Assembly: GCA_903813345.2 (NCBI GenBank)
Contig: CAIIXF020000012.1
Coordinates: 6,535,615-6,599,614 of the forward strand
Direction of reading: 5' to 3'
Length of the DNA stretch: 64,000 bases
From: Owenia fusiformis
Taxonomy: Eukaryota > Annelida > Polychaeta > Sabellida > Oweniidae
The notes beneath the pieces were generated by a model, which did no database searches, was not told where the DNA came from, and saw only the letters and a list, made by a program, of their open reading frames with translations. Shown one piece after another: positions 28,225 to 62,437 of the stretch. Both the position numbers and the translations under genes were made by a program. The first letter of the stretch is position 1. Each line of letters opens with the position of its first letter.

Positions 28225-28851
28225 AGATACAGTCTGTCCAGTTGAGTAGTCTTAAGCCGAAGACTCATCAAGAACCGTCAGTCATAGAACAGTTACGATG
28301 ACTATAAACTGCACACTTCTTAGCAATCTCAGTAGTGATGACAATTGTACAAATGTTACTCAAATACAGGGAGCAATGGAAGTCACAGGAAACAGAAATT
28401 TATTAGCACCAACGATGCAGATTACAACAGGAGTTATCATATTTTTCGCGAATCTTTTAGTCGTTATGTCAATTAAGCGCTATAAAAAATTACAGACTGT
28501 TTCGAATATATTTCGTGGTCACTTAGCTATGAATGACACTGTATTAGGAGCTATCATGACTGCAAGAGGAACCTTTGAACTATCCGGAACATTAAGAAAG
28601 ACAACACCCTGCCTTATTATTAACATTGTTTTATCAGCATCTGCAGGAGTAACCATGACGGGTGTTCTTCTGCTCTGGATTGAAATGTTTCTAGCGACAA
28701 GGCAAAGATGCGTAAATGGGGCATTTAGTAAGAAAACTGCTTATGTTCTCATATTAGTCACTGTAGCTATATGGTTGATGTATACCATCAGTTCTCTTTT
28801 GTTTCATGAAAACAGGCGTATAGATGAAGGTTGCCATTTGGGTAATGGCCT

Positions 28852-29057
28852 CAGGCCCGTAGCCAGGATTTGCCAAGGGGGGGTTCACTTTTTGGAAAAT
28901 TCCAGGGGGGGGTTCACTTTTGACAATTTGGGTGCAAAAAGGGCCAAAATCACTAAAAAAGTGCTCAGAATGGTGAAAAACTGCATGATTTTGAAAGAAT
29001 TTTTTGCCAGGGGGGGGTTCGCCCGAACCATGCGAACCCCCCCTGGCTACGGGCCTG
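28852..29057. mobile_element. 206-bp palindromic MITE inside the GPCR (copy 2)
   Basis: Ends caggcccgtagccagg and cctggctacgggcctg. Flanking target duplication ggcct at 28847-28851 and 29058-29062. The interior repeats gggggggttcac and gggttcgcccgaacc. It is closely similar to copy 1 at 22953-23160. Confidence 0.92.
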
Positions 29058-29211
29058 GGCCTGATCCATAAGTATCATTTGATAGGGGGATGTATCATCA
29101 TGTTTCTGCACGTGATAGTTCTCCTCGTCCTGCAATTTTTAACATTCTTGAACCTTCACAAACATGTGAAACATCTTAAAGAACATGGCATTATTCTACA
29201 AAATGCTAAAC

Positions 29212-29785
29212 GTCCCAGTTCAAATAACGAATTCAATGGCCAGATTTCTCGATTGCCCGAGCGAACTCCTGGGGGTTCGAATTCAGAAAACGAATTCAAC
29301 GGTCAGCATCCACGATTGGCCGCTTCAGCCTCTGGATGTTCCGGTTCAAATAACGAATTCAACGGTCAGAATCCTCGATTAGCCGATCCAACTCCTGGGC
29401 GTTCCAGTTCAAATAACGAATCCAACAGTGATAATTCACGATTGCCCGATCCATTGCCTGGCCGTTTCAGTTTAACTATCGAATTCAATGGTCAAGAATC
29501 TCAACTACCCGATTCAACTCCTGGATGTTCCAGTTCAACTACCGAATTCAGTGGACAAAATCCTCGATTGTACGATCCAACTCCTGGGAGTTCTAGTTCA
29601 AAGAACGAATTCAACAATGAGAATCCACGATTGACCGATTCTTCTCCTGGATGTTCCAGTTCAACTACCGAATTCAACGGCCAGGAACGTCAAGTGCCCG
29701 ATCCAACTCCTGGATGTACCAGTTCGAATGACGAATGCAGCAGTCAGAATCCACCGTTGCCTGATCCAGCACCTGGTCGTTCGAT
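29212..29785 (+). repeat. Nine 63-bp repeats in GPCR loop 3
   Basis: Nine in-frame units of 21 codons encode variants of SSNNEFNGQNPRLPDPTPG followed by one or two residues. Conserved anchors are caacggtcag, cgaattc and ccaactcctgg. The repeats make up most of the cytoplasmic third loop between TM5 and TM6 and are Ser/Pro/Asn-rich, so probably disordered. Confidence 0.9.
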
Positions 29786-30422
29786 TTCAAATGGCGGATT
29801 CATCGGATTTCAGAGTGATGTGCAAAATAAATTGAATAATGATGTTAGTCAAACTAGTCATAGTTATCAATGGTCACGCCGTATGTCTAGAGTTGCTAAG
29901 CTTATAAGTTTCATACTTATATCCTTTATCATTTGCTATGTTCCATTTTTTGTTGGCTTACTGATCAGCCCAGAAGTAAACTACATCACTGTAACAATGG
30001 TTATATGTAACTCACTCACAAATGTCATTGTATATCTTACTAGGAGCAAGGATTACAGGAAAGCTTTCAAACACATACTAACATGTAAACAGGGTCCTGT
30101 TCCTATGTAATTAGAGAGATTTCGCAACTAACTTATGAAGCGTTTAATACGTCATAATCTAAACGTCCATAATTGGGATATTAGGGAGTTTAAGCTTGCA
30201 ATGTTTTTCACAACCTAAACGTGAACGAAATTATTTAAGCAATGTATGGGCGATTGGTGATACGTATAGGTTGACGTTTCGATTTTATATGCAAGCTCAA
30301 GCTCACTATTATATATGTACAGTGTATCTGTAATTTGAAGAATATATTTTTTTATTATATCACTGTCATATTCCTCACTCTCTTATTGGTCCATGTCCTA
30401 CACGTGACTAAAAATAAGTAGC

Positions 30423-45769: not shown

Positions 45770-46140
45770 CAGACGGCGCCCGGCCGATTGAGTATTTTGT
45801 TGAAAATTGTGTTCAATTTTGAACAAATATATGGGTATTTTGTTCAAAATTGTATTCAATTTTGTACAAAATACTCATCGGACGGCGCCCAGCCGATTGA
45901 GTATCCTGTTCACAATTGTATTCAGTTTTGAACAGAATACTCAATCGGCCGGGCGCCGGGCGATGGATCTGAGTAATGCCTGGGTCACATATGCTCCGAT
46001 CCATCGCCCGGCGCCCGGCCTATTGAGTGTTTTGTTCGATATTGTTTTCAATTATGAACAAAATACTCAATCGGCCGGGCGCCGGAGTGAAAATCGGAGC
46101 ATATGTGACCAAGGCATAAATGTGACCCAGGCATTAGACA
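45770..46140. mobile_element. Nested MITEs of the ggcgcccggccgatt family
   Basis: A complete copy at 45976-46117 has ends atgcctgggtcacatatgct and its inverse, each followed inward by ggcgcccggcc. A partial copy surrounds it (45770-45975 and to about 46140), giving several direct and inverted repeats of cgattgagtattttgttca. Three more copies are at 46703-46901, 49776-49917 and 52757-52893. Confidence 0.8.
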
Positions 46141-46702
46141 TAACTGAGGCATTGATGATCCCAATGTCCAATGGTCATGGAAAATGGAGTGAGTGAATAG
46201 ATATGCAATAATTAAATACAGTGGGGATCAACTGGAAATGAAGACTACATAATGTCTTTGTTACAGCATGGACGGACCTCTGGTCGATAATGATTTTTGT
46301 TTTCTCGTTCGATTTTATCACCTTTATTCCTGTTTCGTCATTTTCTGTTAAGTATCATGGCACCTTAAGTTAAAATTTGATGGATGTCAGGTGACAGAAT
46401 CAACAAAACAAAAATTCTTCTACCGAAATTTTGGCCATGCTGAATCGAAGACATCATATCTTCGTTCCCAGTTAAGTTATTCCCAAGTGAAATGGAGCAA
46501 TTCTGCCATACATGCACTGCAAATATACAATCAAAGACGACAGTTTTTCTCTGTTTGTAATTTTCATGCATGGCATAACTCCTGCAAAGAAAATCCCTGT
46601 TCACATCAGGGTCTACGTTTTTGTCCCCAGTCCATTGAGTTGTAAGCTTTCTCAGTTTGAATAGAGCGAAAAAACTGCGGTCTAATTGGGATTGGAATAG
46701 TA

Positions 46703-46901
46703 ATACCGTGGTCACATTTGCTCCTATTATCAGCACGCGCGCCCGGTCGATTAAGCATGTCGTTCAAAATTGAATCCAATACAAAATACCCAATCGGCCG
46801 GGCGCCGTCCGAGGAGTATTTTGTTCAAAATTGAATACAATACAAAAAACTCACTCGGCAGGGCGCCGTAGTAAAAATCGGAGCAAATGTGACCAGGGCA
46901 T
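46703..46901. mobile_element. MITE, ggcgcccggccgatt family
   Basis: Ends resemble accgtggtcacatttgct and gcaaatgtgaccagggca. Internal cgcgcccggtcgattaag and caatcggccgggcgccg arms, with an extra internal copy of caaaattgaat. It lies about 140 bp before the first coding exon of the CEMIP-like gene. Confidence 0.8.
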
Positions 46902-47040
46902 AACCGCCTTCATATGATAAAAGGAACGAAACTTCGTATTATGTAAACTGCAACTGATACTATATCTTATCTTATTTGGTGGCGAACTGCTTGTCATCAC
47001 AGTATCTTTCATAAATTTGATTATACGCCAGTATAGGGAG

Positions 47041-50000
47041 ATGATGAAGGTAAGTATTTTCTTCAGGTATGTTCAGCTTCAAATTACTGTAAAAAGATTA
47101 ATGTATCATTTGAATAGCTTATAGGCCATTGTCCATTATTTCTCCGTCACTAAAACCTGAGCAATCAAAAGAGAAAATAACTAGTTTTATATACAATAAA
47201 CTAGTCGTATATCCAATAGACTGAATTTCCTGAAAAATTCAGTCTATTGATCATTATGTTCCTCCTGTGGGAAAAAAACAGGAAATTTCCAGCAAACTAT
47301 TATCAATTTTAGGAAACTTCACTTCCCAAAAATATGCATTATAACAATTCAATTAAGTAGTAAGGTACAATTAAATGCTATAAAAAGTAACACAGCATAT
47401 TGTCAAATGGAAATAAAGCTAGGGGAAGTAACAAATATGCAAATTAATTTACCCAGTCGGCCATTTTGAATGGCACTTCCTATGTAAACAAATAATTTTC
47501 AATCCCAAATTTTAACATATGTGGGCTATAGTCTGAATATTTTCATTCCAAATTTCAAAAAAATTTCAGACTAGAGGATATAGTCTATACAATAAACCGA
47601 TGGCCGCCATCTTGTTACTTCGGAGTTTCAGCCATGTTATTTTTTCAAAATAAATATCAGGCAGTGTTGCAAATAGATATAGGAAGCCATATACAATATT
47701 TTTTTAACAAACCACGTATATTTATGATACAAAAAAAAACCATTTTTTGTGTATGTGTATAGAATATCAATGTATGATATTTATCTTGTATTACTATTCG
47801 ACATTCTTTCAGACTTTACAGGTGTGTTCCATATTGTTTGCATTCGTCTCCTTTACCTCTGCAAACTTTGGATCGCTGCCCAAGCTTGCATTGTTATCAC
47901 CCAAAGGCATCAGGTTCACCTTAGAGGGTATGTACTTACTGTGTTGACGTAATGATCACATAGGCGTTTGGTTAACACGGTTTTATTGTATATGATTAAT
48001 GTAGAGATGACATCTATTTTATTTTTGATAATAACATACAGTTCATTTTGAAATTTTGTCGATTTGACTTGGCATATCCTAACTCTTACCAAAACTTAAT
48101 GATAATTACAGACCCTGGACCCGGTACGACAGTTGTAGCATTTCACTACAGCGTCAACACAATATTACCGGGGGTTCAAGCGGGCCAATGGAATTTTGAC
48201 GTCTGGAACAAAATAGGTAAGAGTGAGATTGGGTAGATAGGTGTATCATTAGTATTTCGTCTGCGACTTTGACAAAAGATGGCTTCGCGGGGCATCTTCT
48301 GGATGAAAATTCGTAGTGAATGTTTGCGTCAAGTGGATTTCAAAACTGCATTTGAATAATTGAACTACAATTCGCAATCGAAAAATTGAATATCAATGGG
48401 AGTTAACTACTAGGTTAATTCGTGAAGAACAACGTTGTTCTTCACATCTGGCCCATTGGTTTGTGAGTAAATATTGCTGTTTTAATTTAAAACTTCAAAT
48501 TCACTACATTGAAATAAATATCATTATTACCCTTCATTATTAGTTACAAACATGTTGAATTGTTTTTCATATACATGTATGTCCATTAGTCAACGTCTCT
48601 TATGTCAATTTTGACTTGTATTGATTTTATATTTAGGGAATAATTATATCCATGAAAACACTCGTGTAAATGTTAATCCCGGTGATGTCGTTCACTATTG
48701 GGTCTACTACACACGAAATGGTCGGGGCTATCAAATAACGGATAGAACTTGGAGGGCCGAGGCTAGGCCGACTCCGCGTCCAACAACTACTAAACGCCCA
48801 GCAGTTGAGGTTTCTACACCGACTCGACCAGATGTAGTGGAACCTACAAGTCGACCAATAACACAGTCTGGTAAGTGTCATAAACGTTCAATATACATAT
48901 ATATGACAAAATGATAAGAATATGACATAATTTCATTGTGATTCAATGTATGGATTCACTATCGGTCTTCTTTGAGCTGCTCTTTCATCTTCTTATCCGG
49001 AATTAGATCGTTTGTTGCAACAGTTCCCCATGTACTTGAAATAAAGTACATTATCTGTATTTTGTCAATGGGGTTGTCAGAGAGTGGCCATGACTGTTAT
49101 ACATTTCAATTTTTGTTAATTCGCTAGATTACTTGTATCTTTGAAAGTAGTTCATCTGACATATACAATACACGAGCGATTCTTCCAGACGCTAATTTCG
49201 ATAACAATGCCTCTATTACCATTTTCATGATTTCACCTTTGTCGGTGAATAATTTGTGGGCAAATATTTACATAATTAACGCAGATATAAAATCTCTTTC
49301 TAACCTAAATGACAAATGGTGTAAAGTTCTCCCAAGCATGTGTGGTGAACTATATAATCTACCGAGGTTTGTTACTCTAATCATAACCATATAACCAACG
49401 TTTATTTTATTGATTCCACATTCCATATTTTAATAATATATTTTGACTTAAATTCGTCGACTTGCATTCATTTAAATATAAACTCAGAATTGAAACAGCT
49501 CTCATTTTACTCCAGGCTCAGCAGTTGAAGGCAATACACATTGGCCCACATCTAGCTCAAATTGCAAGTCGACCAGTGCAATCGAACGAGTCGCTTGTCC
49601 ACATCAAGCATCTGGCCTGACGTCATGGCGTCCCGGACATGACGAAAACAGAGATGTCTTCATCGGCGAAGGGAAATCGTATTTGTTAGATGATTCGGCT
49701 ACTTTGAGATCAATAACAGTTGAAAATGGAGGCAAGTGTTTTTGGGGTTTTCAGTTTTCACAACTGTACTTATATATGCCTTGGTCACATTTGCTACGAT
49801 TTTCACCACGGCGCCCGGCCGATTAAGTATTTTGTTAAAAATTGAAAACAAATCTGAACAAAACACCCAATTGGCCGAGCGCCGGCCGATGGATCGGAGC
49901 AAATGTGACCCAGGCATTATCAATGAATGATGACATACATCGCGTCATGAACGTTGATGTGATGAAGTGATATTAGCCTTTCCGTCTACGAAATTATGCT

Positions 50001-53000
50001 GTTTGCAGGAGCAAGAAGTCTACCACTAGAATGCATGTATCAATATCTATTCGCGGATAAAAATCGTTTCATGAGTACATCATTATTCAAGTTTCTTCAT
50101 TTCTTGGCTTCTATAAAAGAACAGAACATGTACGTTAGGACTTCATTAAATGATATGATATTATATGCTTATTCCGGAGCTTAAATTCATATCCAGGAAT
50201 ATAATATAACGATTATAAAAAATTTACTATTCAAGGGAAGCTTGTAATCAATGATATTCCAAGCAAGCATATACGGCTAAAGGTACGAAGCATTTTACTT
50301 CGAAATGGAGGCGAACTTCACATCGGGTCAGAGACTTGTAAATACCAAGGGAAATTCACAATCATCCTGGTTGGAAAGTCTAACGAGGGAGTTGAAAATG
50401 CCGATTTTGGGCGGAAGTTTATTGGTGTCTCAGACGGAGCAGTGTTGGAAATCCATGGACAGGAGAAACGATCTTGGACTCAGTTAGTCAGGTCACTGAG
50501 TGAAGGTAGGTTGACTTATTTCAACCATGTAAGATTTATTTTTACGTTTAACAATCTCATTCCATACCAAGAATTCATAATACAGCAACTAGTATTTTAT
50601 GTGATTGATGTAGCAAAATGATAATTTTACTAATGATATCCTATAAACAAATGAAGGTGAAACAAACCCCGTATTAAGCTTAAAGGATGACGTAACAGAA
50701 TGGAACGAAGGGGATTGGATCGTTATTGCAAGCACAGATTACGATATGAATCAAGCAGAAGAATTTAGAATACAGAGATGTTGTGAGTGCAACAGGAACC
50801 AAATCAAAATTGAAGGTACGCATGCGCAAACTTTGTAATTGGAGAAACAAACCCAATATACTTAAATGCAGAGTTTTACAATATAAATTCTTAAAGGCCC
50901 CATGTAAAGTTTAAACCACTTTTGCTTATATTGTAGTCTTACCCAATGTTATCAAAGTGTGATACGTGAAACTTTTTTTTTTAATTTCAAAAAGTGGTTT
51001 TTGATTGACTTTTTGTTCCAAAATTTAGGAATTTATTTAAAACCAACTTTTAGAGGTCACTCATTTCTTCTAATTAGCCCAAAAAAAATAAGAAAATCGG
51101 TTGATAAACAAGCGAGAAATGAACTTATCAGTGCATGAAAATGGTTCTGAGAAAAATGCATTTCAAAATTTTAGTTCTAATAGAAACCAATGGTACAATG
51201 ATATCTAAAACATAATTTGTTCTTCCTTTTAACCTGGTTAGACAATCAACATTGGTTTTTTATGAAAGTCTAGCATATTTAGAAAAGATTGACATCGAAA
51301 AAACAATTCAATTTTTTTCAAAAAGTTTTTGTTACCTAGTGACATCACTAATGTTTCAAAATATTTTTGATAATCTAAAACATTGAAGTGGCCCATTAAA
51401 TATGACATCTTATTATTGAAATAGTGTGTCTTTTGTTCAATCTTTGCATTGGTGTTAAAAAGATAATCTTTTTTGAAATGCATTAAAAAATATTTGATGA
51501 TTATCTCTAAAATCACTTTTTAAGTCCTTACAAATAGTAAATGAATGATAAAAAAATATTTTCAAACTTTAGACGGGGACTTTAAGCTTTAATTGATAAT
51601 TGAAGATCTCAAGAAACAATAGCAAAATGTACCTGTATGTTGTGAAAAAATCTATACAATGAGAACTTTTGGTGAAGTTCGTTGATCAAAATATGACCAA
51701 ATGTATAATTCCAAATGTGAACAGGCATTTTAAAACAGTCTACAATCTGCCAAACTTCAATGTCTTTAAAAATGTGCCCATATCATACAGGTCAACTTAA
51801 ATATAATCATTTTGGGGAGATGGACGAAGGCGTCGACATGCGAGGTGAAGTGGGACTCCTCAGTAGAAACATCGTTGTAAAAGGACAGATGGAAGGCAAC
51901 TGTTACGGCGACAACCAATGCAGATTCTTCGAATATGACACAAATGGTGGTCACGTTAAGGTATCTACTGGGTGAAAGATATTTTAACGCATGGGTCAAA
52001 TTATTTGTTCGTATTACATTTGATTTTTACGTCTTTACTAGTGTATTAAGACTTGGGTTTAAAGATGTTTTGTTATTTTCTTCAAAAAGTTTACAGTGGT
52101 GACTAAGCCTCATTTTGGTTTTCCTGTATATTCTTAGATGATACAAGTCGTTTACTAATGATATCAAACAAATATAATCATATACTCTGGTCCACATATT
52201 CTACTATAGTATTAACTATATACTATCAATCGTGTTCCATCCATTTTGATAAAACACTCATTCGACTTTTGTCAAAAGATGCGATAGGAGAGGGGTACGC
52301 TAACTCAGTGTGACTAAGCCTCATTTTGGTTTACCTGTAGATTCTGAGAGGATTCAAGTCTGTGCATATATCGGGACTAGAGCTTACGAACATGGGTCAG
52401 CAGAGACTAGGGTTCTACCCAATCCATTTTCACCTTTGTCATGACGTCGATGAAAGAGGCGGATATACAAAGCCAACGTACGTAAAGGAAGTGTCGATAC
52501 ACCACGCATTTTCCAGATGTGTTACTATACATGGAACCGATGGACTATTGGTTAGTCTTTCTTAGCTTTGTGTTTTCTCCTGCTATCATTTTTGGTGTTT
52601 TTATTCCCAACAACTGTATTACATCAGATTTGCAAAAAAGTAAACAAGTCATTCACTTCCACAGCCGACTGCATTTTGTACTGGAAAAATTGTAAGCCCT
52701 AGTCACTTCAAACTAGTTTTTAAAATGTCATATTCTGATCTAAATACTGCTTACTAATGCCTTTATCACATTTGCTTTTCACTACGGCGCCCGGCCGATT
52801 GAGTATTTTCTTCAAAATTCGAAACAAATCTGAACAAAACACTCAATCGGCCGGGCGCCGGCCGGTGGATCGGAGCAAATGTGACCCAGACATTACCGAC
52901 ATGTACATTTTCATCTTGTATTATCAACGTTGACTTATGAATGCAATGAAACATGTGCTTTACATTCTATTTATAGATCAAAGACACAGTTGGATATGAT

Positions 53001-56000
53001 ACACTCGGCCATTGCTATTTCTTGGAGGATGGCGCCGAGCAACGAAACACATTGGATGGAAATTTGGGACTCGTTACTAAGCCAGGGACACTTCTACCAT
53101 CGGATAGGGATAGTAATATGTGCCGGAAAATATTGAATAACGTTTGGCCTGGGCATATTCCGGATCCAAATGCTTGCAAGTACGTATATGATACACTTTA
53201 AAGTTGATTGAGAACAGTGTAAGGATATTATACGTAAATATGGCTCTCTATAGAAATAATACCCGCAATTCACGTATTTCATCAAAAGTAGGTAACGTTA
53301 GTCCTTAACAGTTCAACACGCAGATCTTAAATCTCATTTAAACGAGACTTCAACGAGATTTCAAGGCTACGCCTTTGCAAAGTTTTCAAGGCGAGTTTAA
53401 CTTTTTGCAGTGCAGTTACAACATTCTGGATCGCCCATCCAAATAACAACTTCATAAACAATGTTGCTGGAGGCTCTGCAGTAAGTAAAACATTTGAAAT
53501 ATACCATAGGTAAAAAAAGAGAATATATAATCATGGATTTATTTATAACTTATATGAAGCGATAAATGTATATAACCATGGCTTTAAAATCATAGTTATT
53601 AATATTATATAGATGGCTGTAAATTAAAGTACATATCTCATGCTGTTGTCATATATGCTAGCCAGATTAAATATATGTTTTGCCTTGTAATTATTATGTA
53701 CTTATCATCATAGCTTGTTTGTTGATATTTATAATTGATAATTATCAAGTAATTGAAGGATTCTTTTTTAACAGCAAGTGGGGTATTGGTTCATTTTCCA
53801 TAATAAAGTAACTGGTCTCTCTGCGGGGAAACTACCCAATGGACATGGAAGTAGAAGTCCAATGGGAGTTTTCAAAAACAATCGAGTCCATAGTGTGCCA
53901 AGGGTGAGTTGCTGGTAGAATGTTAACATTTTCTTGAAAATCTCATTAAACTGAATCCACGATATACCCCAACTTCATGTTCTACAACACCCATTATGTA
54001 TGTGCTATTGTAATTTAAGAAACCTAAACAATTCTATTTAACCGTTTTGGCTGAATATGGCGAGTAAAAGCAATTATATGTCTGTTTTATTGTATACATG
54101 TACATGTATGTACATGCTGCCAGTGTTTTCAACTATCAACCATTGATCATCATTTCAACACTTGCAAAGAACGAAAAACCATTGAACAAATGTGATTATT
54201 GTTTGTATCCAGAATTATGAATCATGACGCACAATTCATTTTACGTGGTGTCAAGAAAGCAAATAAAAGAAACGGTACACATGAACTAATTCAATGAGAT
54301 TTGATTTCATATTTGGACAAGCAAATCTTATAAAATTAGAACTTTTGTAACTTTCTGGACAACCTGTATGTACATCTGTAACTAAAAATAAATATTATTT
54401 GACTAGTGTCATTTTGAGTTTATCTTATCTAGACTGGCCTCATCATCGACAATGGAGTAAAAACAAGCGAAGCATCAGCGAGATCTCCAAGCGAAATACT
54501 AACCGTCTCTGCTGGTCTGTATGTATCTGTAGATCGAAAATTACTCGACAAGTTTTTAATGCATAATGATGTGTAATTCGCACAATCAATAGACGTAGAC
54601 ATAAAACATTTAATATGTAATTATCAAAGCTGGGAAATCGCCCATATAGATAACGAATTGAATGCTCTTTTAAATATGTATTCAGTAACTCTCACTGAGA
54701 ACGTTCATTCGGTTAGTTAATACTATCAAGTTTTGGTATGTTCATCACTTGTTCTCATTAATTACATTCTGGACGAATTTTACGGGCATAGATTGTGAAA
54801 ATGATGTTGACGCTAATGCCTCAGTCATATTTGATCTACGACATCCGTACGGCGGCCGTAGACATCCCCAAATCGACAAAAATATTCAGCAGAGCAGAGC
54901 AAATGACAGAGCGACAGAGCAAATGTTACAAAAGTTTTAGTTTTTTAGAACTTTTAAGCACTTGCTTGGACGTTCTGTTTGTAGTAGGTTATCATTAATC
55001 ATAAAGATCTATGTATCACAGACATCCCATGACCGATTTAGCATCGTCCATAGCCCACTCTAAGGACGGGGTTGAACAGTTTGTATACTAGTCAGGCGTG
55101 ACTTTGGTGAAGTCAAGACGTGGCATTATGTTATTACATTTCGTTACGTTATACCGGTGTAAAAAGGTAGGAGGTCCTATTAATTCATGGTCCTACCCTC
55201 CATTGATTTATATGGTGACCTCTTTCCCTAATTATCTTATACACAATCAGGGCTAGTAAGGGCCTTTAAAAAGGGGGACCATGATCCCTAGGGGACCATA
55301 ATTTCTTTCACACCTGTCAAGTCATAACTGTAGGTACGCGCCGCACATCGGTTCAGATTCTAGGATGCCGAGAGCCCCTGCAATAATAGATGGCTTCATT
55401 GCATACAAGGTCAAAGGTCAAGGCTCTTGGGTTAGAGGTGGTGATATATTCTTCAAAAACTCTGGGTATGTAACCATTTTACAGCATGTGTAATAGCGTA
55501 CTATTAGCAATTGTTAAATCAGATTTAATCAGTAGCTGGTTTTCTGATACATAAACTAAAATCATTTAGTAAAAAAGAGACCTATGTTTTATATGCCTCT
55601 GAGTAAAAACATCCCATTAGTCCCCTATGTATTTGTTACTTCTAATTTTCAGTATTAAGTAAACTTGAAACACTGATGCTGTACAATGTACATTGAAGTG
55701 GTGAAACGGTATGCGAATGCAATACGATACCAAATCGGCTTTATGTGCAAGCTCAAATCTTCCATTCACGTTCACTGTGTCATTACAAATTATCACTATT
55801 TTATTAATGAAACAAATGTCTCGTGATCTACAGATTTATTTGTATTCCAAGTTTACTGAACTCTGTGATCCATGATAAATATTTGTTGTAGCGTTTAACA
55901 GAATACATATTATCTACTATTACATTTTGTATTATACAAATATCTATCTCTGTTTGTAATCCAGGTTTGCTGACAATGGAATAGGTTTAACCTTAGCGAG

Positions 56001-58983
56001 GTGAGAATTATAGCACAAATCAAAAAGCAGATCTATAATATTGTCATTTATCATAATTATCTAGTTTTATTTTCCACTATTTGATAGCTATTTGCATCAA
56101 TTCTTTTCACTATCACGAAATAAAATGTGTAACTATGTCAGTGCAATCAAAAGAATCACAATTAATGCGTAAATACATAACAATATATATATATCAATAT
56201 TTATCATTTGTTCACAAGCAAAACACTATTGGTAGACTGGAGGTTTCTCGACCAACAACTGTTTTCGAAAAAATGTCTCAATCAGGTCATAAATCATAAT
56301 TAATAGTATTTCTAATGGTACTTTTCATGCAATATGTAATCCGAATGCCGATATCTGTGTAATCATTAAATAAAAAACATGAAATAGATAGGAAGATCAT
56401 GTATCCAAATGTTTAAAATCGCTACATGGTACCAATTTCTATTATTCATTAACATGATTTTTTCTACAGCGCAGGAGAGATACCCTATGATAAAGGATCA
56501 CACCAAGAAATCCGAAATTCTATATTCGTGGGTGAGAGTCGAAACCATGGCAATAAAGGTCCAGCACCACACACATGGTGGGGCCCAGGCTATGACGGTA
56601 TTATGAGGACTCATCCTGAGCCACCGTAAGTGTTACTTTACACTCAAAGAGCATTGACAACCAAGATCCCTTCTGGATCTTCATTCAACTGGAATGGACC
56701 AATATGGTATTATTATTATTATCACGATGTTTATCTCCCTGACTGAAATTTGTTTTGAAGAAGAACATATATTAATATGATTCCCAAATTGTTTCACGCC
56801 AGTCAAAATGCCTGTCACATTCTATGTCTAAATATTAGCATTCCCTTAAACTTTATCAATCGTAATGTGACACATGTATTGGTCTTTGACGACAGTTTCG
56901 GGTGGTTTCAGTTGATTGAGAACATTTGGGAGTCTAATCATGGTTCTTGTATGGCGGTTCGTGCATATATCTCAAATAAATTGATCGGTTTTGAGATGGT
57001 TAAATTGGCAATGCATGTCTATATATTCATATTTTTCCTCTCTAGACACTACTTATATGCAGTGTTAATAATATGAATGATGCCCTCTTTTAGGCACTAC
57101 CCATTGACAGGTTACAGGATATATGATGGACCAATGTTAATAGAAGGATGCACCTTTCGGAAGTTTATTCCAACAGGGGACAGAAAGGTTCAGGCAATTG
57201 GGTTCTTCTACAGCAACCCATTCCAAATGACACCAAAGAACATTTTCACAAATAACAAGTTTGATGCCGAGGTATTTTACGTACTAAAAATTAATTTTAA
57301 CTACCTTTTGATATTGGTGATTGCCAATATAAAGTTGAATATCATGAGTATAATATGTCGTTTCTAAATTAGATAAAACATGATTTTGCATTGACTCGAG
57401 ACAAGTAAATATTTATGGTAGTTTACCATGATGATGATGTCGTGATGATGATGATGTCGTGCTGTTAAACTTTGCTATCCATATGTTCCCCGTTACCTCT
57501 TCAGAGTGTAAAATTGTTCACTGGGATGAAAAACGCCCCTTTCTATGGGAAACACGACAATGATGGAGACAAGACAATAGTCATAACCGACCCAGACGGT
57601 ACACTATCTGGTTACAAGGACAGTACATTGGTCAAACCAGACAACTACCTTGTGCACCATGAAGGTTGTCAAATTAACCAACTTTTCAACGCTAAAGTTT
57701 GTTCTGGAAAAGTCGTTCAAGTAAGCTACATTATTTTAAAATTTCCTTGAAAAGTCGTTGAAGCATGCTATGTCTTCAGAATCATGATATACTTGACTTT
57801 CTGTATAAAAAATAGAGTACTAGACAATAACTAAACTATAACATTTTGCTAAAACAAACAAACACAATCTTATTGTAAAATATCCAAAATATAAGTTCAA
57901 TTGATGCATGTCGGGTGATGCTTAATTTAATCTGTAAATGTTCAATTAGCTATATGTGTATGGGAGACAGCCTTACCATCTTCATGCGACACTCGTTAGA
58001 GATGATTATCCCAATAACCCCCAAACACTGAAAGGTATTGGCAGTAACCACATGTTTGTCCTACATGAGAGAAAGTCGTACACTCTCTACTGGAGCGAGA
58101 GGGCTCCACAAGAGGTTGAACTCAAAGCTATCAATTTTGAACGGTTAGTTTCTTTAGATTCCAACATCAATTGTTTTTAGCTCATTTTATTTAGTGTGAT
58201 TGCATGCACTTCAGGAATTTGACCCAACGTATGACGTATTAAAGTTGATACACGCACGACAAAGTTATCTTTATTGTCTGTTTCATCTTGTCATTTAGCG
58301 GAAACAATATTCGAGTTGGACTTTGCTATCCCTCTGGAACCAAATTCGATGTGCACTACCGTGTACAAGACGGAGGTTACAGACGAGTCAATGAGCGACT
58401 TCAGCAGGTGAATAGCATCAATGACATAGACAGGGCGAACGGAAACAATTACTATTGGGATGAAAGTGCGGGGTAAGTATACGTAATTACTGTAAATGTT
58501 GATTACTAGATATTCCAGTTCCTTTGTTTTAAAATGTGAAATACTGGGCAAGATAATCAATCATTTTAATTTTCGTCCGATCCATGTAAATATCTTAGTT
58601 TGTTGTTTATTTCCGCCTGTCTAGGCTACATCTCTGTACCGGTGTTACTGCATATACTTCAACTGCGGTTTTCACTAATATAGTAAAGAAAAGAAAAAAT
58701 GTGTGTTATTCGAAATGTTTATCTCCCGAAAAAAAAACATATGCATGAATGTCATTTCAGTCTGCTTTTCGTGAAAGTTCATGCAAGAAATGATCGTGTT
58801 GGCTGGGACTACTGCTCTACCAGCGGCTGTGAAAGTATCATCATCCAAGCAACGTTCACTAGAGGAGCAGCATCCGATTGTCGGCCAAAGGCATACCCCA
58901 AATACCAAAAACCCAAAGAGTATGTGCCTATGCTAAGAGGGGGTTGCTCTAACTGCGGAGCAAGTGAACCACTTTGGAGATAA
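47041..58983 (+). CDS. CEMIP: Secreted CEMIP/TMEM2-type protein with N-terminal CBM39 (1094 residues)
   Basis: Twenty-one exons: 47041-47049, 47813-47927, 48112-48216, 48637-48870, 49516-49731, 50236-50505, 50657-50815, 51791-51960, 52341-52550, 52977-53179, 53411-53480, 53775-53903, 54433-54518, 55334-55465, 55965-56000, 56470-56625, 57094-57271, 57505-57720, 57950-58143, 58299-58472, 58761-58983. They sum to 3285 nt with matching phases. Residues 1-20 are a signal peptide (MMKTLQVCSILFAF, cleavage after FTSA). About 24-119 is a CBM39 beta-1,3-glucan-recognition module (GDVVHYWVYYTRNGRGYQ), then a Thr/Pro linker to about 155. About 175-290 is a G8 domain (NGGKLVIND, RNGGELHIGSE), followed by the CEMIP core: ASTDYDMNQAEEF, FHLCHDVDERGG, HGTDGLL, IIDNGVKTSEAS, WVRGGD and RVGLCYPSGT. 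CEMIP and TMEM2 depolymerise hyaluronan. The C-terminal ILEI/PANDER-like domain of vertebrate CEMIP is absent. Intron 5 uses a GC donor. Confidence 0.92.
49776..49917. mobile_element. 142-bp MITE in intron 5 of the CEMIP-like gene
   Basis: Ends atgccttggtcacatttgct and agcaaatgtgacccaggcat, inner arms cggcgcccggccgatt and ttggccgagcgccg. Flanking tat on both sides suggests a TA-containing target duplication. Confidence 0.85.
52757..52893. mobile_element. 137-bp MITE in intron 9 of the CEMIP-like gene
   Basis: Ends atgcctttatcacatttgct and gcaaatgtgacccagacat, inner arms cggcgcccggccgatt and caatcggccgggcgccg. Flanked by ta on both sides. Same family as 49776-49917. Confidence 0.85.
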
Positions 58984-61278: not shown

Positions 61279-62437
61279 CTATACATCGCATGTATAATGG
61301 CTTAACAGGTATTCGGTAATTTCATCAATTACACGTTCCCTTTCACCATTTTTGTATTCAAATATCTTAGTGGAATCACCAACAATTGGCAGTAATTCAA
61401 TATCCTCAACAGTTCCACCATATTTCCGCTCGTTTGTTAATCCAGTCTTGCCTTTCGGTTGCGTTTTGATCCATAGAATATCAACATTATCATTCCTAAG
61501 TTTTTTCGACTCCTTTATATTGTGTTTGCGCGTGCGTATTGGCGACGTCCAACCATCTCCTATGAAGATCAAGACGTCCTTGAACGCCCCGTCATCTCGA
61601 TCATTCTCCCCATTGAAATAGCCCCTCGACATACGCATCGCTCGGTAAGGTATTGTCCTGCAAGATAGGGAGGCTGTTTTTAGGTTATTCAACCTGGAGA
61701 GAATTGTTGATACATCTGCATTCGGTATAAAGTCCATTTTGCTCTGAACATCGACATATTTGCCAAAGGAAAATGCACCGAATCTTGCACCTGCAATATC
61801 TGATATTTGAAAACTTCTTGCGATGTCTATAATTAGATTCACTTGGTCAGCTTTCACATTCCCATGTAGAGAGCAAGAAGCATCGTTTGCAAAGACGATA
61901 TCTGCACACACTGAAATCAAAATATATAGAATATAGTATAACTCGTTTTTCCTGATCTTTTGATTTACATACGATGTGTATTGCTTTTGAAGCAGAAATA
62001 ACTTCATGAAGAAATAGTCAAACTTGGTAGATTGTAAATGCACATACAATATGTCTTTTAAACGTCATTCTTAGCTACACATTTAAAAATTAGTATGATT
62101 GTGGGTAACAAACACTTCATAAATACATACGTACACTCAAAATTATGTTCACTTATATCAACATCATACCTGCATATTGATTGTCGTCGTGTGCTATTGG
62201 TAAATCGGGCAATGGACCAAGAGGAACAAGAGGAACAACGGTTTTTGGCGCAGGTGGTAGTGTCGTGATTTTTGCTCTTCCACCTCCAGACAGTCCTCCA
62301 TCGGGTATTATGCGCAGCTCATCAAACAGATCGGACCACCCCCTGCTACCTCCATTCGGTTGTGCGAGACTATAACTTATGATTAGCTTGTTTCCCATAC
62401 ATTGTATTAAAAGAAGAATAGTCATTTGATTATACAT
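61279..62437 (-). CDS. Secreted von Willebrand factor A-domain protein (299 residues)
   Basis: Two exons on the minus strand, 62170-62437 and 61279-61910, join in phase (900 nt, 299 residues plus TAG). I chose the ATG at 62437 (MYNQMTILLLIQCMG) because it gives a signal peptide ending near SYSLA; the frame is open slightly further upstream but without an ATG. After a Gly/Pro-rich linker (PPAPKTVVPLVPLGP) comes one vWA domain from about residue 92 to the end: strand DIVFA, MIDAS residues D99, S101 and S103 (NDASCS), FGAFSFG, the MIDAS threonine in SCRTIPYRA and the aspartate in LIFIGDG. The metal site looks complete, so divalent-cation-dependent protein binding in the extracellular space is likely. 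The partner is unknown. It is convergent with the CEMIP-like gene. Confidence 0.85.

Follow-up and report, generated by a model that had tools for sequence, protein, structure and literature searches.

Does a single gene join CBM39, the main beta-glucan sensor module of invertebrates, to a CEMIP-type core, and what would the product of such a gene do? The question arises from a 64,000-nucleotide stretch of the Owenia fusiformis genome (the window), for which an earlier note had proposed that the two are fused and that the protein could link glucan recognition to polysaccharide cleavage. Profile, alignment and structure comparisons of the window, of the whole genome and of bacterial relatives of the core lead us to regard one reading as probable, if by a modest measure: a single gene encodes a secreted protein in which CBM39 docks the CEMIP core on beta-1,3-glucan, and the core may modify a polysaccharide at a conserved histidine site.

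Gene model and domain architecture

The 21 exons of the gene model (Table 1) splice into a frame of 1,094 residues with a stop at 58983. All acceptors are AG and all donors but one are GT; the exception is a GC donor (GCAAGT) of intron 5, at 49732-49733, within the G8 domain. The exon 1 start is the weakest part of the model, because it contributes only nine coding bases and three residues, and the signal-like stretch was called by eye from hydrophobicity. In the spliced translation, CBM39, G8, the CEMIP beta-helix and domain X all score above their Pfam cut-offs and lie on one chain, which bears out the proposed fusion of CBM39 to a G8/CEMIP core. Intron 1 is in phase 0, and introns 2 to 7 are all in phase 1; the phase-1 boundaries that had been claimed for exons 2-5 were, therefore, correct and in fact understated.

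Table 1. Features of the CBM39-CEMIP gene, in window positions (1 is the first letter of the window).
Feature	Position	Strand	Evidence or remark
Whole gene model, 21 exons, 1,094 residues	47041..58983	+	Splice dinucleotides AG/GT (one GC), one open frame
Exon 1, codes for MMK, proposed start codon	47041..47049	+	ATGATGAAG then gtaagt
Exon 2, signal-like stretch and start of CBM39, ends in phase 1	47813..47927	+	Donor after the first base of a codon
Exon 3, middle exon of CBM39, phase 1-1, holds Asp71	48112..48216	+	Boundaries and phase common to 10 of 10 CBM39 loci
Exon 4, remainder of CBM39 (Trp98) and Thr/Pro-rich linker, ends in phase 1	48637..48870	+	Profile, alignment
Intron 4, between the CBM39 half and the G8 half, 645 bp, phase 1	48871..49515	+	
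CBM39, residues 26-119, across exons 2-4	47879..48764	+	PF15886, 63.4 bits (curated cut-off 25); the search of the genome hit its third exon
G8 domain, residues 197-310, exons 5-6	49641..50486	+	Pfam, 108.5 bits; best among the 12 G8 matches of the genome
Intron 6, 151 bp, near the place of the small beta-sandwich and lectin-like domain 1 of TMEM2	50506..50656	+	No such domain here
CEMIP beta-helix, residues 420-633	51940..54441	+	PF24606, 296.6 bits
His455-Phe-His457, His457 being the equivalent of TMEM2 His552	52425..52433	+	Both histidines kept in TMEM2 and in all 28 aligned bacterial homologues
CEMIP domain X, residues 898-1069; chain ends 25 residues on, without lectin-like domain 2	57718..58905	+	Pfam, 177.2 bits

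Several other features of the window were recorded. The fusion protein contains no N-X-S/T sequon, and a sequon-free secreted animal protein of such size is unusual. A 51-nt repeat, 90% identical between 52099-52149 and 52310-52360, puts a second copy of the exon 9 acceptor region and of the first few bases of that exon some 211 bp further upstream, and this copy might act as a decoy in splicing. Copies of a short inverted-repeat element with abundant GGCGCCCGGCCGAT and GAGCAAATGTGACC lie upstream of the fusion gene (45773-46121 and 46700-46904) and in its introns 5 and 9 (49772-49919 and 52776-52896). Away from the gene, two overlapping frames at 28256-30110 gave partial matches to rhodopsin-type receptors (29.6 and 26.8 bits, Pfam cut-off 30.5) and are perhaps one receptor gene broken by a repeat, and an open frame on the minus strand at 61279-62064 contains a von Willebrand A-like stretch (21.7 bits, cut-off 23.8).

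The CBM39 module and its linker

The CBM39 module, which had been placed at residues 24-119, was confirmed by a profile match that covers nearly the same residues (Table 1). Two Pfam families overlap it below their cut-offs, CBM_56 (22.9 bits, cut-off 27) and P_proprotein (18.4 bits). The Thr/Pro linker that had been described is also present, with 53% of residues 119-156 being Thr, Pro or Ser. Alignment with moth beta-GRP placed Trp98 and Asp71 of the fusion protein at Trp76 and Asp49, respectively, given a numbering offset of 2 that is deduced from position. Asp49 of Bombyx beta-GRP contacts glucan according to a figure legend (PMC7915573), and Trp76 of moth beta-GRP is named as a beta-glucan contact residue in PMC6272582. 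The match to these two contact residues suggests that the CBM39 of the fusion protein would likewise dock on beta-1,3-glucan. An aromatic triad has been proposed in the CBM39 of Drosophila GNBP3 (PMC6272582); at the corresponding places the fusion protein keeps Trp98 and Tyr100 and has His96 at the first. Insect beta-GRPs differ among themselves in CBM39 ligand preference, as stated in PMC7915573.

When the CBM39 part was compared with solved structures, no TMEM2 chain was matched up to E = 1. The earlier statement that vertebrate CEMIP has no such module is, thus, upheld for the solved TMEM2 chains; CEMIP itself is not known to carry a CBM39.

Descent of the CBM39 exons

A profile search of the genome, with 14 candidates scored, gave ten CBM39 matches above cut-off, that of the window included. 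The middle CBM39 exon starts after AG and ends before GT at the same codon and in phase 1 in all ten loci, and its boundary falls in one alignment column in nine of nine rows of the CBM39 alignment. The exon that follows ends at a phase-1 GT in eight of the ten; the exceptions are two near-identical loci, L003 and L005, where the third exon continues towards GH16. The donor phase of exon 2 matches that of the signal/CBM39 exons in the three of the nine other loci for which these were read (L002, L004, and L006).

By-eye reading revealed GH16-like exons downstream of CBM39 in all nine other loci. Exons of L006, joined by eye, reached 27.7 bits with the GH16 profile, above its cut-off of 22, and matched solved enzymes of the GH16 family with E values down to 7.7e-18. 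Joined exons of the L007/L008 type scored 13 bits and a single L001 exon 11.5 bits, one exon each of L001 and L009 gave no GH16 profile match, and GH16-like exon peptides are common to L001, L007, and L009. The Pfam GH16 profile returned no match in the whole genome, with one candidate scored, which conflicts with the by-eye reading at nine loci and was attributed to the shortness of the exons. As judged from these comparisons, GH16 is profile-confirmed at one of the nine loci, and the others are assigned through the shared exon peptides (L001, L007, L009) or by eye.

The closest paralogue of the fusion CBM39 is that of L009, with 43 of 78 residues identical, and it is also the nearest by tree path; the CBM39 tree leaves the donor undecided, since no starred set contains the window row. 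The CBM39 exons of the fusion descend from a beta-GBP-type gene. The junction between CBM39 and GH16 in most loci and that between CBM39 and G8 are both phase-1 introns, as exon shuffling predicts, and the case for shuffling, first made from the intron phases of the window, is strengthened by the identical middle-exon boundaries at the genome's nine beta-GBP-type loci. The fusion looks like a clean example of the process, with its probable donor family still in the genome. At L001, an 85-bp unit is repeated 18 times in tandem over positions 338-1866, with 98% matching, and this unit contains the acceptor and first bases of a beta-GBP-type CBM39 middle exon.

One gene or several pieces

The CBM39 and G8 halves look like one gene, as far as exon structure can tell. 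The G8 half, from exon 5 onward, has its first methionine only at residue 347. If the halves were two neighbouring transcripts, a short secreted CBM39-only protein would stop within intron 4, and the CEMIP-type gene would stand apart from it, starting from a first exon that was not seen. Read-through past exon 4 does reach a stop after 14 codons, at 48912-48914, the intron contains one AATAAA, at 49040, and one of its 13 ATGs, at 49227, starts a frame of 55 codons that has two phase-1 donors. However, this frame is only mildly hydrophobic, and no phase-1 GTAA, GTGA, GTAT, GTAC, or GTAG donor was found for the other 12 ATGs, including the most signal-like and hydrophobic of them, at 48950, which stops after 18 codons. 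Furthermore, the exon 4 donor is good (gtaagt) and its phase fits exon 5, and the match to TMEM2 begins at residue 181, directly past the linker. Two transcripts are, in our estimate, improbable. Eight GH16-like peptides found no significant match in the window (best E 0.26), so that no conventional partner exon to which the CBM39 exons could splice was found there.

The CBM39 exons might also be a decaying 5′ copy of a beta-GBP gene that lies by chance upstream of a CEMIP gene. CBM39 is indeed multicopy in this genome, and in two pairs of loci the CBM39 stretches are 97% or 100% identical, but the copy in the window has three intact CBM39 exons with all splice sites, equivalents of two ligand residues, and an extra linker in frame. 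In simulations of neutral decay that ignored indels, the frame and splice dinucleotides survived in 1.6% of runs at 74% amino-acid identity, a value taken on the assumption that the fusion lineage accounts for half of the divergence, and in 0.05% at 55%. Because neutral decay so rarely leaves an open frame with its splice dinucleotides, a dead remnant is unlikely, and we give this explanation very little weight. Even less is given to an assembly artefact joining two loci, in favour of which nothing was found: the window has no N and sits within a 36.7-Mb contig (C12) of a genome of 498 Mb in 525 contigs, and the exon phases are consistent over the junction. A single fusion gene, thus, remains the preferred reading.

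The core compared with TMEM2

The core has G8, beta-helix and domain X, in the order of TMEM2. Over residues 322-918 of the fusion protein, 304 of 596 residues are identical to TMEM2 (8c6i). The alignment passes from query residue 316 to 322 while the chain runs from 167 to 335, leaving 167 chain residues without a counterpart, and the match ends at residue 1117 of the 1301-residue chain, with the query match ending four residues before the query itself does. Two pieces are missing relative to TMEM2: lectin-like domain 2, and the insert made up of the small beta-sandwich and lectin-like domain 1. The reported lack of the C-terminal domain of CEMIP is borne out by the absence of lectin-like domain 2, and lectin-like (GG) domain 1 is absent as well, which goes beyond what the earlier note had said. 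Pfam matched neither ILEI nor a GH16-like domain in the fusion protein; the four ILEI matches of the genome lie on other contigs (C1 and C5).

Two exon-by-exon searches, which weak copies could escape, found no CEMIP-type gene elsewhere in the genome, and domain X had no match in the genome outside the fusion gene. Matches to the core off contig C12 are 34-47% identical and lie in loci with G8 and helix matches at two places, as in PKHD1L1.

Bacterial relatives and conserved residues

Among bacterial and archaeal genomes, 107 relatives of the core were confirmed, and 80 of these were kept (L011-L090); 56 pattern matches in a scan of viral contigs included no relative. Among 17 bacterial proteins scanned with Pfam, none has a CBM39; an N-terminal SLH (L014), an N-terminal PA14 (L037), and, in one protein, a C-terminal Big_7 were found. 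An added N-terminal module is, thus, not peculiar to the fusion animal.

For alignment with the core, 28 long colinear relatives were used, and L018, L023, L033, L034, L040, and shorter or weaker ones were set aside. The stretch between G8 and helix has 25-26 residues in all 28, compared with 29 in the fusion protein, and none of the 28 extends more than one residue past fusion residue 1060, near the end of domain X. In a blastp check of all 81 matching frames, 74 had one match spanning fusion residues 300-345, and none of these contains an insertion of the TMEM2 size: the largest has 32 residues (L073), compared with 167 in TMEM2. Elsewhere in the chain, some weaker bacterial matches have insertions of up to 48 residues. 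The closest architecture to the core of the fusion protein is, thus, the lectin-free bacterial form.

Within this alignment of 28 relatives, E351, E389, Y452, H455, H457, R485, H490, H508, E513, H626, D636, R693, D706, and D778 of the fusion protein are invariant, and D514 is kept in 96%. These invariant residues are identical in TMEM2, where H455 and H457 correspond to His550 and His552 (the TMEM2 numbering is the chain index plus 82, deduced from chain length and the described construct). His552 lies at a nickel site in a TMEM2 crystal, according to PMC11043200, and one Ni2+ is entered in the TMEM2 structure table. The two histidines are also kept in a PKHD1L1-like paralogue; they are thus a mark of the wider family, and on their own they do not prove catalysis.

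A bacterial relative, L021, aligned with 23 others, served as a stand-in for the fusion protein in structure modelling. In a second comparison, made with the chains that Foldseek ranks highest, the model (813 residues, mean pLDDT 91) superimposes on TMEM2 over 743 residues with Z 41.5 and 1.9 Å. The next neighbours are mannuronan C-5 epimerases (Z about 22), and the lower rows hold a mixture of NosD, phage tail proteins, tailspikes, and polysaccharide lyases. Sequence support for domain X in bacteria is weak (27.4 bits for L021 against a cut-off of 27.6, and 27.6 for L045); the domain X of L021 lies within the structural match to TMEM2 (model residues 50-813).

Enzyme or adaptor

The core had been called hyaluronidase-type in the earlier note, a label that the analysis does not support. 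The activity of TMEM2 is itself disputed, and a third paper, besides the two studies cited below, is said by its title to deny it. The substitutions R265C, D273N, and D286N of TMEM2, reported to abolish activity, map to lectin-like domain 1 (PMC10206443), which neither the fusion protein nor the bacterial relatives examined have, and the equivalent residue of CEMIP, R187, sits in the GG domain of that protein (PMC11275217). The name hyaluronidase was dropped for the fusion protein, since this domain is absent from it, the activity of TMEM2 is in dispute, and its core is most like the lectin-free bacterial one. Hyaluronan is not a safe guess for the substrate. Ten exon matches to GH56, a hyaluronidase family, were recorded elsewhere in the genome, at C10:7963147-7974015, and look like at least two tandem copies.

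In a rival reading of the same fusion, the core is no enzyme, and the secreted protein would serve in pattern recognition or in the matrix as an adaptor, bridging beta-1,3-glucan and a second glycan. The glucanase-like domain of insect beta-GRP/GNBP3 has no glucanase activity, as PMC7915573 describes; the purified TMEM2 ectodomain was inactive in one study, and the structure paper assigns no active site (PMC10206443); a review calls it unclear whether CEMIP and CEMIP2 are true hyaluronidases (PMC11275217). NosD and phage tail proteins, moreover, are among the structural neighbours of the L021 model. In contrast, a second group obtained robust TMEM2 activity (PMC10474455), and the core has polar residues that TMEM2 and every one of the 28 aligned bacterial homologues keep unchanged, which is more than a scaffold seems to need. 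We regard the adaptor as possible, though clearly less probable than the preferred reading.

In the preferred reading, the sequence shows the first exons of a beta-GBP-type gene, with signal-like stretch and CBM39, joined at a phase-1 intron, by way of an extended Thr/Pro linker, to a CEMIP core that has neither lectin-like domain of TMEM2. The resulting protein would be secreted. CBM39 would bind beta-1,3-glucan of fungi, algae or bacteria and anchor the core there, and so take over the part in docking that is ascribed to lectin-like domain 1 in TMEM2. The core, which keeps the invariant polar residues and the metal-site histidine among them, could cleave or otherwise modify polysaccharide at the conserved histidine site, a step in which we place lower confidence, and its substrate may be other than hyaluronan. 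The link between glucan recognition and polysaccharide cleavage drawn in the earlier note is, on this analysis, a sensible hypothesis.

A bolder version would make the protein an effector in immunity or digestion. Exon shuffling through introns would have removed the inert glucanase-like half from a beta-glucan receptor and put an active CEMIP depolymerase of the bacterial type in its place. We hold this to be rather doubtful. If it were true, the catalytic core of the CEMIP family would be the metal-site beta-helix alone, and lectin-like domains and CBM39 would be interchangeable targeting modules. Both the hyaluronidase status of TMEM2 and the place of its active site are under dispute, and the fusion protein and its bacterial relatives offer lectin-free cores on which catalysis could be told apart from binding; the bacterial homologues might provide a simple system for this enzymology.

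Comparison with known systems

A literature search, mostly of titles and the beginnings of abstracts and with subscription papers largely outside it, found no description of a CBM39-CEMIP protein. As far as the searches reached, the CEMIP core is a new partner for CBM39.

The fusion protein shares with beta-GRP, GNBP3, and beta-GBP an N-terminal signal-like stretch and CBM39, with the middle-exon boundaries of the beta-GBP-type genes of the genome, whereas the GH16-like domain of those proteins is replaced by the CEMIP core. With TMEM2/CEMIP2 and CEMIP/KIAA1199 it has in common G8, a right-handed beta-helix and domain X in this order, together with His550/His552 and the other invariant polar residues. 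It differs in its added N-terminal CBM39 and linker, and in being without the two lectin-like domains and small beta-sandwich of TMEM2 (the sequence comparison was with TMEM2, not CEMIP); it also has no N-X-S/T sequon, compared with 15 in sTMEM2 (PMC10206443). The PKHD1L1-like proteins of the genome share G8 and the CEMIP beta-helix, with the HFH motif kept in L010, but their loci have G8 and helix at two places each and no domain X was found in them, whereas the fusion protein has one G8, one helix and domain X. The bacterial proteins with G8 and CEMIP beta-helix, from Deinococcales, Meiothermus, Gemmatimonadota, Acidimicrobiia, and others, are about 30% identical to the core; like it, they are without the lectin insertion, and the long ones reach the end of domain X.
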